Of a DNA stretch of 64,000 nucleotides, positions 3,216 through 33,615 are shown in pieces. The stretch lies in the NCBI GenBank assembly GCA_019358975.1, contig JAHHIL010000002.1:186001-250000 (forward strand), read 5' to 3'. This DNA is from Trichocoleus desertorum ATA4-8-CV12 (lineage in GTDB: Bacteria > Cyanobacteriota > Cyanobacteriia > FACHB-46). Every line of letters begins with the position of its first letter. The first letter of the stretch is position 1. The position numbers were made by a program, and so were the translations under genes. The notes under the pieces are model-generated. The model was given only the letters and a program-made list of their open reading frames with translations, searched no databases and had not been told where the DNA came from.

Positions 3216-5351
3216 CTAATTCTCCATGACTACTGTGGAAATAGCTTCCGTAGGAATAGCTTCTTCGGAGTTGATTTGAAACAGGCAATTGCGGCCTTGG
3301 GCCTTAGCGCGATACAGCCCTTGATCAGCAGCCACAATTAACGTCGCGGAAGAAAATTGGTTTTTGGGAATCGTGGTTGCAATGCCAAGACTGAGCGTAA
3401 TAAACTCAGCGACTTGAGAACTCGCGTGGGGAATTTGTAAAGCTCTGACATTTGCCTGCATCTGCGCTGCAACGATAGCGGCACCCGCAGCATCAGTATT
3501 GGCTAGAATCACCGCAAACTCCTCACCCCCGTAACGCGCCACCAAATCAGCGGGACGCTTCACCGCTTGCGCGATCGCCTGAGCCACTTGCCTCAAAGCA
3601 TCATCGCCTGCCAAGTGCCCGTAGGTGTCGTTGTACAGCTTAAAGCAATCAACATCGCACAAAATCATGGATAAAGGAGATTGCTCTCGCACCAGTCTCT
3701 GCCATTCTTGGGCCAAGAACTCATCAAAGCAACGGCGATTAGCCACCTGAGTCAGCCCATCTGAAGAGGCGAGTCGCTGTAGCTCTTGGTTAGCCTGTTG
3801 TAGTTGCTGATAAAGCTCTGATTGCTGAATGGCGATCGCAGCTTGGCTCGCTAACTGATTGAACAAATTGATTTCGGCAGGTTGCCAGCTTCTAGGCTCA
3901 CTACATTGATGAGCAATTAATAATCCCCAGAGCTTCTCCTGCTGCAAGATGGGCACGACTAAATTGGCTCGAATTTGGAGATCTTGCAAGAGCTGCACAT
4001 GACAAGGAGTGAGTCCCGCCGCATGAATATCTGCGATCGCTTTACTGCGTCCTTTTTGGTAGTCGTAGGCATGATTGGATTGGAAGCAAGTGTCAATGAC
4101 ATGCAGTCCCAGAATGGGCAGCCAGCCCTCTGCCACAGACTCCACTACCACAACTCCACTCCAATCGGAGTCAAACCGATACAGCACCACACGGTCTACT
4201 CCAAAGAGTTGCCGAACTTCTGCGGCAGTAGTCTGCAAAATCTCATTTAAGTCCAGCGATTGCCGAATCCGTTGCGTAATAGCGGCTACAATTCGCTCTG
4301 ATTCCCTTTGTTTGCTATGCAGTTCTGCTTCAGCCAGCTCTGTAGTTGCGCTTTTTAGGACAATGCTGTTAGGGGAGGTCGCGATCGCCCCTAAACTAGG
4401 CGTCACAGCCGCAGGCACAGCACTTGGCTTCGCAATCAAATATCCTTGGGCAAAAGTTGCTCCTCGCTCCCGCAGCCAACCCAGTTCCTCTACGCACTCA
4501 ATGCCCTCAGCCACAGTTTGGATGTTTAACTGCTGCGTAATTTCTAAAATCTTTTCTGTAATTAGAGCTTTGTACGGGTCTTGATGCACATCTCGTACTA
4601 AACCCATATCTAACTTGAGAAAGTCCGGGCGCAACTGATGCAACAAATTGAGGCTAGAGTAGCCAGAACCCAAGTCATCCAACGCAATCAAAAATCCTGC
4701 ATCTCGGTAATACTTTAAAATCGATTTGAGATGGTCTAAATCCTGGGGATGATTAGACTCAATTACTTCAAATACAACCTGCTCATGAGCAATCCCTGCG
4801 GCATCAATGGCATGGACGGTGCTGCGTAGGCAAGAAACAGGGTCGTATAAAGCAGTCGGTGAGAAATTAATAAAAATGTGACTAGAAATTTGATGTTGGT
4901 TCGCTTGGGCGATCGCGCTTAAACGAGCCAACCGATCCACTTGCGGAAGCAGACCTGCTTCGGTTGCCAGCTCTAAAATGGCCCCTGGCATAATCAAATT
5001 ATTTTGCTGATCAAACCCGCGTAGCAGCGCTTCGTGAGCATAGATCCGAGAAGTATCTTTGATATGAACAATCGGTTGAAAAAAGCTGGTGAAACGTTTC
5101 GCAGCCAGCATCTCTACGAGCCAATCCGACTGAGTAAACTTGATAAAACGCTGGAGCGAGGTAATATCGCTGAAGTCTTGAATTTGGGGTTGAACATTAC
5201 CCCGAATAAACAACGCTTGAGTTTCTTTCAATTCTATCGGAGTCAGCAAACGACCAATATTTTGAGCTAGCTCTTGGGCTTGCCCTGGCTCGCAAGGAAC
5301 ACTCAAACCTAGAAATAGCCTACCTGCCTCACCAGCCCCACAAGAGACCAA
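3216..5351 (-). CDS. EAL-GAF-GGDEF c-di-GMP turnover protein, 5' end disrupted by an insertion
   Basis: A soluble bifunctional second-messenger protein with an N-terminal EAL phosphodiesterase domain (about residues 85-325), a GAF sensor domain (about 355-515) and a C-terminal GGDEF cyclase domain (about 545-695). EAL catalytic motifs are intact: EALLRG at 107-112, DDLGSGYSSL, KLDMGLVRD and TVAEGIE. The GGDEF active site reads RYGGEEF and an inhibitory RxxD site (RPAD) lies five residues before it, so both activities look possible. The only start available in the present sequence is a TTG at 5351, with no ribosome site. Upstream the frame meets a TAG inside a 400-bp mobile element; removing that element joins the frame to a GTG at 5808 preceded by GGTAGG. 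I therefore infer a 730-residue ancestral protein that has lost about 19 residues, none in a catalytic domain. Whether it is still translated is unknown. Confidence 0.85.
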   Translation of the reverse strand: MVSCGAGEAGRLFLGLSVPCEPGQAQELAQNIGRLLTPIELKETQALFIRGNVQPQIQDFSDITSLQRFIKFTQSDWLVEMLAAKRFTSFFQPIVHIKDTSRIYAHEALLRGFDQQNNLIMPGAILELATEAGLLPQVDRLARLSAIAQANQHQISSHIFINFSPTALYDPVSCLRSTVHAIDAAGIAHEQVVFEVIESNHPQDLDHLKSILKYYRDAGFLIALDDLGSGYSSLNLLHQLRPDFLKLDMGLVRDVHQDPYKALITEKILEITQQLNIQTVAEGIECVEELGWLRERGATFAQGYLIAKPSAVPAAVTPSLGAIATSPNSIVLKSATTELAEAELHSKQRESERIVAAITQRIRQSLDLNEILQTTAAEVRQLFGVDRVVLYRFDSDWSGVVVVESVAEGWLPILGLHVIDTCFQSNHAYDYQKGRSKAIADIHAAGLTPCHVQLLQDLQIRANLVVPILQQEKLWGLLIAHQCSEPRSWQPAEINLFNQLASQAAIAIQQSELYQQLQQANQELQRLASSDGLTQVANRRCFDEFLAQEWQRLVREQSPLSMILCDVDCFKLYNDTYGHLAGDDALRQVAQAIAQAVKRPADLVARYGGEEFAVILANTDAAGAAIVAAQMQANVRALQIPHASSQVAEFITLSLGIATTIPKNQFSSATLIVAADQGLYRAKAQGRNCLFQINSEEAIPTEAISTVVMEN

Positions 5352-5368
5352 GTTATCAGAACCTTGGG

Positions 5369-5768
5369 TCTAAAACCCCGTCCTTCTAGGACGGCTTTTG
5401 ATAGAATTGTGCTAGCTGCCAAGGTGAAACTCCTTTGCCATCGTGAAACGGTTAAGACACACTTTTAGGCATAAAGTAGGGGCACCGAGCGTCGAAAACT
5501 CGTTAAACAGGCAGGGAAAGCAACGTCTTCCCACGACAGAGAAAACCAAATACTCAGTTGCCAGGAAACGTAAGGCGGGGCACGCCTTAACGCTAGGCTT
5601 TTATCCTAGTACGCTTGGGGAGACAGGCCCCTCTGGAGTAGACCAAGTTAAGCTCGTCAATTCGTGTGCTCACGGTTGGTTGGTTTAAGGATTGCCGCAA
5701 GGATGGCTTGCTTTAAGGTTTGTCGAAGATCCAAGAATCCCCGTGCGTTCACGCCGGGGAGTGTCAAA
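5369..5768 (+). mobile_element. 400-bp non-autonomous IS200/IS605-type element
   Basis: The left end has a perfect 7-bp hairpin (CCGTCCT / AGGACGG, 5378-5394) just inside the boundary. The right end reads GAAT, then a hairpin CCCCG...CGGGG, then AGTG and TCAA (5737-5768); the GAAT guide and TCAA cleavage tetranucleotide match the right-end layout described for IS608-type transposases. There is no tnpA and no intact tnpB inside; residues like TnpB C-terminal sequence are in the right part. Boundaries were fixed by the fact that removing exactly 5369-5768 restores the reading frame of the flanking EAL-GAF-GGDEF gene. The left target (bases just before 5369 read CCTTGGG) is not a tetranucleotide I recognise, so the left border may be off by a few bases. 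Confidence 0.8.
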
Positions 5769-5784
5769 GCAAGCACAGGATTTG
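5530..5784 (+). ncRNA. Omega-RNA-like (TnpB guide RNA) 3' region without tnpB
   Basis: The right part of the 400-bp element resembles the structured, coding-overlapping 3' end of cyanobacterial tnpB genes from which omega (right-end) RNAs are processed: several stem-loops (GGCGGGGCACGCC, TAGGCTTTTATCCTA, GGGGAGACAGGCCCC) followed by the terminal CCCCG...CGGGG hairpin and the GAGTGTCAA end. In known TnpB systems the scaffold ends at that point and the next roughly 16 bases act as guide; here they would be 5769-5784, the antisense of the EAL gene's first codons. The 5' limit is a guess. No matching TnpB is encoded in the window; the resident TnpB element ends in GTCAC, not TCAA. Confidence 0.5.
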
Positions 5785-5808
5785 GGATTAGAATCGCTTT
5801 GGCTCACA
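5769..5808 (-). pseudogene. Severed 5' end of the EAL-GAF-GGDEF gene
   Basis: On the minus strand a GTG at 5808 follows a GGTAGG ribosome site with a six-base spacer and opens thirteen codons (M S Q S D S N P K S C A C) that run straight into the right end of the 400-bp element. When the element is removed the next codons are S Q G S D N, continuing in phase into the EAL gene at 5366. The upstream in-frame stop (TAA, about 5833) closes the frame just before the proposed start. This is inferred from reading-frame logic, not from alignment. Confidence 0.65.
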
Positions 5809-5999
5809 ACTTGCCTACCGTTAAAACAGCTTTATTAGTAATTCCCATGATGACTTACTAAAGTCCGCAACATGGGGTAATTCCTTTAAAGACTGCTTAA
5901 CTTAAAGACATCTTTGCGCCTATTTGGTGAGTTACCGCATAGCCGAAACCTAGCCCAGCAGGATGACGAAAGAAGAATAGGGAGGAAGGAGCGATCGCG

Positions 6000-6168
6000 A
6001 TCGTCTAGATGTGGCTTATCTCACACCAGAATTAGTAGCCCAATTTGCTGATGTTGCGGTCTTGCCTCAAAGTTTTCCATTCATTACTGCGATCGCCTCA
6101 CCGGATGACAGCGCTGAAAAGTTGTTTACTAGGATTAGAGTTGAAGAGTGCTTGCTGAGAGGGCGATC
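6000..6168 (+). pseudogene. Uma2-family (DUF820) nuclease fragment, copy A
   Basis: Translation gives RLDVAYLTPELVAQFAD, SFPFITAIASPDDSAEKLF and then VEECLLRG, which corresponds to the middle of Uma2-family PD-(D/E)xK nucleases (DVAY, ...ASPDDSAEELF..VEEYLxSG). The N-terminal third and the catalytic C-terminal strand are missing, and the reading frame runs into the end of the PIN toxin gene. A second, more decayed copy lies at 6899, so the two fragments flank the toxin-antitoxin genes in direct orientation. A short open frame (6011-6229) here is therefore a remnant and not a gene. Confidence 0.6.
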
Positions 6169-6170
6169 GT

Positions 6171-6587
6171 TCACCCCTTTCGTAGTAGTGCTCGATAACC
6201 AGCTTGAACAAAATGAATATCCGCAGTGACAGCATCTACCAAATTCTGCTCTCGCATGACTACAAACGAGATACAGTCGGTGAGACCCCAATCCTTATCT
6301 GGACGGCTTTGGTAAAGTTGTAGAGCAGTTGTCAAAAGCTGCGTATTGACAGTTACAACACGCATATTAGTCGTCTTATAGCACTGCTGAATGAATTGAA
6401 CTGCGGCTGCACGGTTTACAGCACTTAGGGCGTTACCGACTTCAACCAAAATCGCTTCAGTCAACCAAACTTCAGCAGCGGCTCGCATTCTCGGTAGAAA
6501 CAATTTGGCTTGGTCGTGGTACTGATCCTGCTTATTAAGTAGTGCTTGAATAAATACAGTGTCTAGAAATAAGCGATCGCTACTCAT
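6171..6587 (-). CDS. PIN-domain toxin (VapC-like)
   Basis: A 138-residue PIN-domain ribonuclease, the toxin of a type II module. Acidic residues expected to bind Mg2+ are in place: Asp in the first strand (FLDTVFIQAL), Glu in LVEVGNAL near residue 47, Asp in DWGLTDCISF near 98 and Asp in VTADIHF near 122. The gene begins inside the 3' end of the antitoxin gene (8-base overlap), the usual sign of translational coupling. It is flanked on both sides by decayed Uma2 fragments. Target RNA is unknown. Confidence 0.85.
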   Translation of the reverse strand: MSSDRLFLDTVFIQALLNKQDQYHDQAKLFLPRMRAAAEVWLTEAILVEVGNALSAVNRAAAVQFIQQCYKTTNMRVVTVNTQLLTTALQLYQSRPDKDWGLTDCISFVVMREQNLVDAVTADIHFVQAGYRALLRKG

Positions 6588-6822
6588 TCTCGTTTTCTAT
6601 CTTTGCAGTGCCGTATAGATAGTGATCATGCTCTGTAGCCCAATCGCTTGGTGCATCGACAGTCCCAACCAGCGCTTCTAGCGTATCCCAAGCATTATTT
6701 TCCGTAGATTCAGAGTTTAAGTTTTGAATTGTAATCAGGTAGCGAGTATTGGGTTGCAAGTTCAAAGGCAACTCTGGTCGTAACACTTGACCATCAAAAA
6801 CAACTGTTAGGGTTTGCTCCAT
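6580..6822 (-). CDS. Antitoxin of the PIN module (AF2212/DUF104-like)
   Basis: An 80-residue protein whose N terminus forms a small beta sheet (TLTVVFDGQVLRPELPLNL) followed by NTRYLITIQN, the pattern of the AF2212/PG0164-like antitoxin family that accompanies VapC-type PIN toxins. The acidic C-terminal half (about residues 38-80) is likely the flexible part that wraps the toxin. It is the first gene of a two-gene operon and overlaps the toxin by 8 bases. Such complexes normally repress their own promoter, which would lie in 6823-6900; I see no clear operator there. Confidence 0.75.
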   Translation of the reverse strand: MEQTLTVVFDGQVLRPELPLNLQPNTRYLITIQNLNSESTENNAWDTLEALVGTVDAPSDWATEHDHYLYGTAKIENENE

Positions 6823-6898
6823 GAGAAGAACCTTCTAGTGAGTGGGGAGAGCTAATTTCTATTGTAGAAAGCGATCGCCCTCTCAATTAGATATGCGA

Positions 6899-7048
6899 TC
6901 GTCTAGATGTGGCTTATCTTACACCCACCTTATTAGCCCAATCTGCTGCTGTTGCGATCTTGTCTTAAGGGTTTCCGCTCATTGCCGCGATCGCTTCACC
7001 AGATGACAGCGCTGAGGAGCTGTTTGCCAACGCGGAGAAGGGTTACTA
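6899..7048 (+). pseudogene. Uma2-family (DUF820) nuclease fragment, copy B
   Basis: Starts with the same bases as copy A (CGATCGTCTAGATGTGGCTT) and encodes RLDVAYLTPTLLAQSA, an in-frame TAA, then GFPLIAAIASPDDSAEELF. The two copies are aligned over about 135 bases with scattered substitutions and one internal stop in this copy, so they form imperfect direct repeats on either side of the toxin-antitoxin pair. Sequence 3' of about 7048 no longer resembles the family. The rest of 6835-7200 has no gene that I can support. Confidence 0.55.
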
Positions 7049-32349: not shown

Positions 32350-32520
32350 AAGGGCAATTACGAGAATAGTGACATACTCCCGACGCTGATGCTACGCATA
32401 CAGAGCGGGCTTCTCAGTGACCCCTGGTATCCCATCGGGCGTTTCCTGAGCTTTAAGAACGGAATGACCTACCGCTCTGTGCTTGATATTAATTGCCGCG
32501 TTGTGGTCACGGTCTAGCGA
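32350..32520 (-). ncRNA. Predicted omega-RNA at tnpB 3' end
   Basis: In TnpB systems the guide RNA is cut from the 3' part of the tnpB transcript plus about 16 bases of flanking DNA. Here the scaffold would end at 32369 and the guide would be the next bases on the minus strand (TATTCTCGTAATTGCC), which form part of the fabI leader. The 5' limit is only estimated. There is no direct evidence of expression. Confidence 0.5.
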
Positions 32521-33615
32521 ACATCCGCAGTTAAGGCAGGAATGCCATCTATCTTGAATAGCTTTGGGAACCTTTTGACCACAACTTGAGCAGTCTTGAG
32601 TTGTGCCGTTGGGATTCACAGCAATCGTCATCAGTCCAGCATTTGCAGCTTTGAGTGAGAGAATTTGCAGGAACGTCCCCCATCCGGCATCATAGGTAGA
32701 CTTAGCCATGCGAGTTCTGGCAATGCCCTTGATATTGAGTGCTTCATACCCAATATGCTTTCCTATGTTGAGCAGCTTTTTCGCTGTCTTGTAGTGAAAG
32801 TCTTTACGCTGATTGGCGACTTTTAAGTGAGCCTTAGAGACTCGCTTGATTGCTTTCTTGCAACGATTAGAACTCTTCTTTTTCCTAGATAGACCACGTT
32901 GTAACCGCTTCAAACGCTTCTCTGACCTGCGATAGGGTTGGGGAATAACAACCTCTTCTCCCTCGTCTGTGACCAGGAAAGACTTCAGCCCCATATCAAT
33001 GCCGATGGTGTTATCCAGGGTTGGCAATTCGGGGTTGAGTTCTGGGACAGAGGCATCTTGCAATGACAGCGTTAGGTAGTAGCCATCAGCCTTTTTGGTG
33101 ATTGCGGCAGTTTTGACTTTGAACCCCGCTGGAATGGGGCGATGCAAAATCACTTTCAACTCGCCAATCTTGGGTAGTTGAATTAAGTTTCCGTTGATAT
33201 GCTCTGCTTTAACAGGATCAGGAAAGGCGAGGGAGCGGTATCTCCCAACCCCCTTGAAGCGTGGTCTACCACTACGTTTGCCATTACTGTCACCACTCAA
33301 CCATCGGTCAAACGCCTTCTTGACTCGTGCAATTACGTCTTGCAAGGTATGAGAGGGAAGTTCTTGGTATTGGGGAAACAGCTTTTTGGAGTTCACAAGA
33401 TCCCGTTTCTGCGAATAGAAATCGGGACGGTCTTTCAACTCTGGTAAGTGACAGATGAGCGGGCAAGCATTAATATCACAGCGATTTTGCTCGTACCAGT
33501 TGAACCGCTCTGCTAGGCGATAGTTGTATTGACGGCGGCAAAGTTCAAGCCAGTGATCAATCGTGGCTTGCTGGGCGGCGGTCAATCTTAATCGGTACTG
33601 ATAGGCGGTTCGCAT
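32392..33615 (-). CDS. tnpB: RNA-guided endonuclease TnpB
   Basis: A 407-residue TnpB, the RuvC-type RNA-guided nuclease of IS200/IS605 elements and ancestor of Cas12. Catalytic residues are all present: Asp in IGIDMGLKSFLVTD (about residue 210), Glu in IGYEALNIKGIAR (about 290) and Asp in SLDRDHNAAINIK (about 370). The zinc-ribbon cysteines occur as CSSCG and CLNCG. The N-terminal wedge/REC part includes YRLRLTAAQQATIDHWLELCRR. ATG 33615 (MRTAYQYRLR) is preferred to the longer frame from 33639. No stop or frameshift is seen, so it may be active. It could cut donor sites restored after element loss. Confidence 0.93.
   Translation of the reverse strand: MRTAYQYRLRLTAAQQATIDHWLELCRRQYNYRLAERFNWYEQNRCDINACPLICHLPELKDRPDFYSQKRDLVNSKKLFPQYQELPSHTLQDVIARVKKAFDRWLSGDSNGKRSGRPRFKGVGRYRSLAFPDPVKAEHINGNLIQLPKIGELKVILHRPIPAGFKVKTAAITKKADGYYLTLSLQDASVPELNPELPTLDNTIGIDMGLKSFLVTDEGEEVVIPQPYRRSEKRLKRLQRGLSRKKKSSNRCKKAIKRVSKAHLKVANQRKDFHYKTAKKLLNIGKHIGYEALNIKGIARTRMAKSTYDAGWGTFLQILSLKAANAGLMTIAVNPNGTTQDCSSCGQKVPKAIQDRWHSCLNCGCSLDRDHNAAINIKHRAVGHSVLKAQETPDGIPGVTEKPALYA

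Follow-up and report, generated by a model that had tools for sequence, protein, structure and literature searches.

The question raised by this locus of Trichocoleus desertorum ATA4-8-CV12 is why a gene for an EAL-GAF-GGDEF protein should open with a mere TTG codon, and what separates it from a better start upstream. It was addressed in a window of 64,000 nucleotides (contig JAHHIL010000002.1), to whose first letter all positions without a contig label refer.

Results

An exact insertion separates the c-di-GMP gene from its likely start

The minus-strand ORF at 3216-5351 begins with a TTG (5351-5349), stays open over 711 codons and encodes EAL, GAF and GGDEF domains, as an earlier note on this DNA had described; the EAL (HEALLRG) and GGEEF motifs of the split gene are both intact. 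That note had placed the native start on the far side of a stretch of about 400 bp, and a GTG (5807-5805) is found there, with GGTAGG ahead of it and 13 codons after it that agree with the N-termini of the orthologues. The homologues do resemble the MSQSDSNPK segment, a lack of such similarity having been named by the note as an argument against its reading. GTG and GGTAGG are both conserved in two congeners (G002 and G001), and comparison of these sequences makes the GTG at 5807 the likely true start of the gene. The two congeners carry orthologues of the gene, that of G002 encoding a protein 96% identical.

In G002, the counterparts of positions 5356 and 5768 directly adjoin, and the inserted block is therefore 5357-5767, of 411 bp. 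The bounds proposed in the note (5369-5768) consequently miss the left end by 12 bases and the right end by 1, and its join of 5368 to 5769 does not give one frame, being out of frame with a stop after 32 codons (following VSQSDSNPKSCACPKVLITWSLVGLVRQVGYF). An empty-site allele with other ends, which the note had itself listed as evidence against its proposal, is what G002 provides, the empty allele of this site reading 5356|5768. With the flanks joined at 5356/5768, a single open frame runs from the GTG at 5807 (VSQSDSNPKSCACYNLVSCGAGEAGRLFL...), the counterpart in G002 being VSQGDSHPKSCACYNLASCGAGEAGKLFL. The idea that removal of the element restores the gene is thus right in that the frame reopens with its GTG and GGTAGG, but this requires the 5356/5768 junction, and the gene still lacks 29 codons.

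The insertion point lies within codon 14 of the gene, 3' of TTAT, and divides an N-terminal three-cysteine motif (CxC followed by another C) that is kept in 4 of 4 relatives; no Pfam match was obtained for the N-terminal region upstream of the EAL domain (residues 1-110 of L005, the G002 orthologue). The frame of the native GTG now stops after 40 codons, within the element, and the remainder of the gene could be made, if at all, only via a weak internal start such as the TTG at 5351; an effect on c-di-GMP and on phenotype may be expected. The note's picture of a protein short of its first residues would presuppose translation from that TTG, and a second, internal loss of 29 codons comes on top. 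The 29 codons missing between 5309 and 5310 are present in all four orthologues, and in G002 the stretch deleted here has a direct repeat (TATGGCTT) on either side, the two spaced by 86 bp. Relative to G002, the split gene shows a dN of 0.018 and a dS of 0.23, and most of this divergence may predate the insertion. Disruption of a gene is ordinary, yet the bounds are unusually firm in this case, with ends set by two exact empty sites.

Table 1. Features of the interrupted gene and of the inserted element (positions in the window)
Feature	Position	Strand	Evidence or remark
Inserted element, 411 bp, without TnpA or TnpB gene	5357..5767	+	Empty sites, second copy
TTAT target, single copy kept; would also serve as transposon-adjacent motif (TAM)	5353..5356	+	G002 empty sites, both copies
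Left-end hairpin CCGTCCTTCTAGGACGG	5378..5394	+	Common to the left end (LE) of the L003/L101 TnpB element and many relatives in the class
Region of conserved RNA structure, with no frame conserved as an ORF	5400..5767	+	5' boundary approximate
omegaRNA-like core (GTA-stem-GGGCA-stem-AAC, second hairpin, ACGCTTGGGGAGA)	5566..5641	+	Covariance model R1 matches tnpB 3' ends
Right-end hairpin, directly before the GTGTCAA terminus	5739..5759	+	Helix 11: compensatory changes in 6 of 6 pairs
TCAA right-end tetranucleotide	5764..5767	+	Last element bases in both copies
Putative guide AGCAAGCACAGGATTTGGGA: host sequence adjoining the right end on its 3' side, part of the interrupted gene	5768..5787	+	Analogy with ISDra2 (PMC8612924)
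Interrupted EAL-GAF-GGDEF gene, 3' part	3216..5356	-	ORF and domain matches; motifs intact
Site of 87-bp in-frame deletion (29 codons, ..WLPVPHPLKKILPYLQSAKLSYEVMPERYG..)	5309..5310	-	Versus G002, G001, G035 and G051
5' end of the EAL gene, now displaced, with the GTG start and the first 13 codons	5768..5807	-	Aligned with G002 and G001
GGTAGG, putative ribosome-binding site	5814..5819	-	Conserved in G002 and G001

The second empty site belongs to another copy of the element in the same genome (C1:539387-539802; 411 bp, 97% identical, 11 substitutions), which likewise has an exact empty counterpart in G002; the genome holds these two copies only. Both show a single TTAT at the left, TCAA at the right and no target duplication. 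TTAT or TTAC occupies the same position in 12 other family members, nearly all other copies of the element also end in TCAA, and this tetranucleotide is the right end of IS608. Because both copies are missing from G002, where the flanks are 92-96% identical, the simplest reading is that the element landed after the split of this strain from that congener.

In the neighbouring DNA, a 131-bp direct repeat (5997-6127 and 6895-7025; 83% identical, 898 bp apart) encloses a toxin-like gene with a PIN domain (6171-6587) and a small ORF overlapping it (6580-6822). The similarity of G002 to the window ends at about 5999, at the start of the first repeat, and this repeat-flanked block may itself be an insertion. 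Farther along the window, another TnpB-type zinc-ribbon match is located at about 32485-32682 on the minus strand (G000:C2:218485-218682).

The element belongs to a widespread ORF-less family

The 411 bp contain no ORF for TnpA (Y1 transposase), and the element is therefore not an autonomous IS. Its interior is matched in 17 of 390 sampled genomes of the class, and full-length copies are present in several genera and families with a co-linear core of about 330 nt, of similar length and 68-77% identity, in which no transposase or TnpB ORF was found. Since such copies occur across genera and families and their ends are common to TnpB elements, the element is not a deletion product specific to this strain. 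Two other origins were considered and rejected: an IS that lost its interior locally in this strain, the same core being found in unrelated genomes, and a protein-coding element (an 81-aa ORF lies at 5443-5688), no frame being open across the copies.

An IS200/IS605-type character is indicated by insertion 3' of a short motif without duplication, by hairpins that are subterminal instead of terminal inverted repeats, and by ends common to full elements. The left end is laid out as TTAT or TTAC, about 10 nt, GGGTCTAAA and a hairpin, an arrangement that also occurs in full TnpB elements, one of them in this genome; compared with the L003/L101 TnpB element, the left end is 97% identical over 35 bp and the right end (RE) 80% over 41 columns. 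Mobility is implied by the two exact insertions, and intact TnpA frames are present in the genome; a search of its TnpA loci with the element profile matched the element's ends at none of them. On these sequence features, the element is a member of a widespread cyanobacterial family of ORF-less, approximately 400-bp elements of IS200/IS605 type. The earlier view of a small, transposase-less insertion parting a c-di-GMP gene from its native start is accordingly supported, by the empty sites and by the alignment of homologues, and the label of small insertion sequence derivative, correct as far as it goes, understates a member of a wide family with a conserved structured RNA of TnpB type. In one genome, a copy (L085, G122:C49) and a separate TnpB element are arranged head to head, their starts about 200 bp apart.

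The element carries a conserved structured RNA

From the left end to the right end, the plus strand carries a conserved structured RNA of about 360 nt, as judged from a consensus built from thirteen copies. This consensus comprises 68 pairs with 95.5% of cells paired, and 34 of the pairs are changed on both sides among the 13 copies. None of 500 shuffles reached the covariation score, and slid controls pair 27-45% of cells; the both-sides changes are the better evidence, because a structure taken from the very alignment that is slid has an advantage in that control. The consensus folds at -60 kcal/mol on the plus strand versus -40 kcal/mol on the complement, and G-U cells number 117 against 15 A-C cells, counted on the plus-strand structure. 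Folding energies of single sequences are ordinary (z of 0.16 for the window sequence, and -0.36) and uninformative. A sigma-70 scan detected no promoter, and the element RNA is a predicted transcript. Searches against Rfam (HEARO, RAGATH-18, introns and others) yielded nothing at E<=1 for the window region, and nothing at E<=0.5 at the loci of three other copies and one tnpB.

The 3' module of the RNA is related to the TnpB guide RNA

In ISDra2, the TnpB guide RNA arises from the 3' end region of tnpB (PMC8612924, PMC10097598). A covariance model of 76 positions (R1), built from element copies with the matched tnpB genes excluded, finds the 3' ends of tnpB genes at L108 and L101 in this genome and at L049, L038 and L043 elsewhere, with E-values, to be read as rough, of 3.6e-7 to 2.4e-4 (L108 3.6e-7, L049 1.7e-6, L038 3.9e-6, L101 1.3e-4). 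The stem of the element core recurs under the VGHT codons in L108, L049, L038 and L101, and the right end there also reads CCAAGAATC-hairpin-GGAGTGTCAA. By sequence and predicted structure, the 3' module of the element RNA is thus homologous to the TnpB guide RNA (omegaRNA or reRNA) that overlaps the 3' end of tnpB. The element RNA also has a 5' domain of about 190 nt with no counterpart in the TnpB loci examined, as well as an extra hairpin region, unlike the RNAs of these loci. Its predicted geometry, with a 3' end at the right end of the transposon and a guide taken from the flank, fits the layout of a guide RNA. Elsewhere in the genome, the best match to the putative guide shows 2 mismatches over 18 nt.

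L108 (G000:C21) and L101 (G000:C3) are open tnpB genes with the motifs GLDVG, (F/Y)EDL and DRDHNAA, and their products are candidate partner nucleases. L101, the matching TnpB with a recognisable left end in this genome, is located at TTAC and not at TTAT; a search for the left end of L108 did not find it, and a left end at TTAT could not be demonstrated for any TnpB of this genome.

Shorter elements with an omegaRNA-like core and the same right end, in which no complete TnpB was seen, were also noted (L136, L143, L148, L142, L147, L035 and L149, in genomes G293, G210, G010 and G122). In three of them the left end is 169-302 bp upstream, versus about 1180 bp in full TnpB elements.

Discussion

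As the most likely mechanism, one in which we have good though not full confidence, we propose that a 411-bp non-autonomous, guide-RNA-carrying element of IS200/IS605 type was mobilised by TnpA and retained by TnpB acting in trans. The Y1 transposase TnpA would excise and insert a single strand, depriving the host gene of its native start. The element RNA would load into a related TnpB, and this nuclease, guided by the host DNA just past TCAA (AGCAAGCACAGGATTTGGGA), would cut vacated copies of the site beside TTAT, repair then copying the element back. The roles given to the TnpA and TnpB partners, and retention by cutting, follow by analogy, and the logic of the TAM and of a 3' guide is taken from ISDra2 (PMC8612924). 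The element would in this respect be a guide-RNA-only PATE (palindrome-associated transposable element), with TnpA mobilising it and TnpB probably retaining it, both in trans.

It could instead be a decayed remnant of an IS605/IS1341 transposon (a PATE or MITE) moved by TnpA only, the RNA-like part being a functionless leftover of the 3' end of tnpB. PATEs composed of the left end, the last bases of tnpB and the right end are already described (PMC3119063 and PMC7290912), and such an origin would agree with the low copy number, with the lack of a promoter in the sigma-70 scan and with a partner TnpB that is only a candidate. We nevertheless hold it to be unlikely: selection on the RNA is suggested both by compensatory base changes, seen in different genera and families of the class, and by the core of about 330 nt, co-linear and of similar length in unrelated genomes. 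Plain leftovers would be expected to decay. That the RNA has a role other than guiding TnpB, either as a regulatory RNA or as single-stranded DNA folded for transposition only, seems rather improbable to us. The 5' domain of about 190 nt, without counterpart in TnpB loci, and the absence of an Rfam match would suit such a role, but homology to the omegaRNA region of tnpB is seen in the 3' core and at the terminus, and the G-U excess and strand bias favour RNA over DNA. As to the gene, it might be intact, with TTG 5351 as its true start and the upstream GTG segment unrelated, given its 711 open codons and an AAGG ten bases ahead of the TTG; four orthologues that read on upstream, the GTG and GGTAGG shared by two congeners and the exactly contiguous DNA of the empty-site alleles contradict this, and we give it almost no credence.

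Returning to the guide-RNA-carrying element acting through borrowed proteins, we extend this proposal to the family only tentatively, and with slightly more doubt than conviction. Cyanobacteria would harbour guide-RNA-only transposons in which an enlarged guide RNA of TnpB type is under selection, borrows a resident TnpB and has vacated sites refilled. Encoding neither transposase nor nuclease, they would be guide-RNA parasites of other insertion sequences, and the short ORF-less types with the same core in G210, G293, G010 and G122 would be further branches. If the RNA works with a TnpB encoded elsewhere, a guide RNA alone suffices for the upkeep of a transposon in a genome. Nuclease and guide could then each evolve as a selfish part of its own, which would provide a naturally occurring case of the separation of nuclease from guide RNA later seen in CRISPR-Cas12. 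With two element copies, a known target and two open TnpBs whose scaffolds are related, the idea lends itself to direct testing in a single strain or in E. coli.

Guide-RNA elements without a nuclease in cis, as proposed here, are known in the form of ORF-less HEARO and stand-alone IscB omegaRNAs; HEARO, unlike the arrangement proposed for the present element, is IscB-associated and has its guide at the 5' end. Searches of open-access literature only, which returned TnpB and PATE papers, showed no description of a guide-RNA-only IS605 element, and this absence is weak evidence. With IS200/IS605 transposons of the ISDra2/IS608 type (PMC8612924), the element shares one target motif at the left (TTAC in IS608, TTGAT in ISDra2, TTAT here), subterminal hairpins and the predicted position of the guide past the right end, and it differs from them in having neither tnpA nor tnpB. 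As in the omegaRNA or reRNA of TnpB (ISDra2 structure, PMC10097598), the 3' module would end right at the right end of the transposon, but the element RNA lies outside any tnpB gene, is longer, and has two additions, a 5' domain and a further hairpin region ahead of the right end.

The element also resembles PATEs. Those of Haloquadratum walsbyi (PMC3119063) likewise lack a transposase gene, terminal inverted repeats and target duplication, carry palindromes near their termini and have ends as in IS605-type transposons; a PATE-like element of Halanaerobium (PMC7290912) in addition retains LE and RE together with the final 58 nt of tnpB. In the passages of both papers that were consulted, PATEs are portrayed as deletion products, and a conserved RNA is not reported. 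What sets the element apart is an RNA of about 360 nt with compensatory changes, kept across genera and families, and an added 5' domain.
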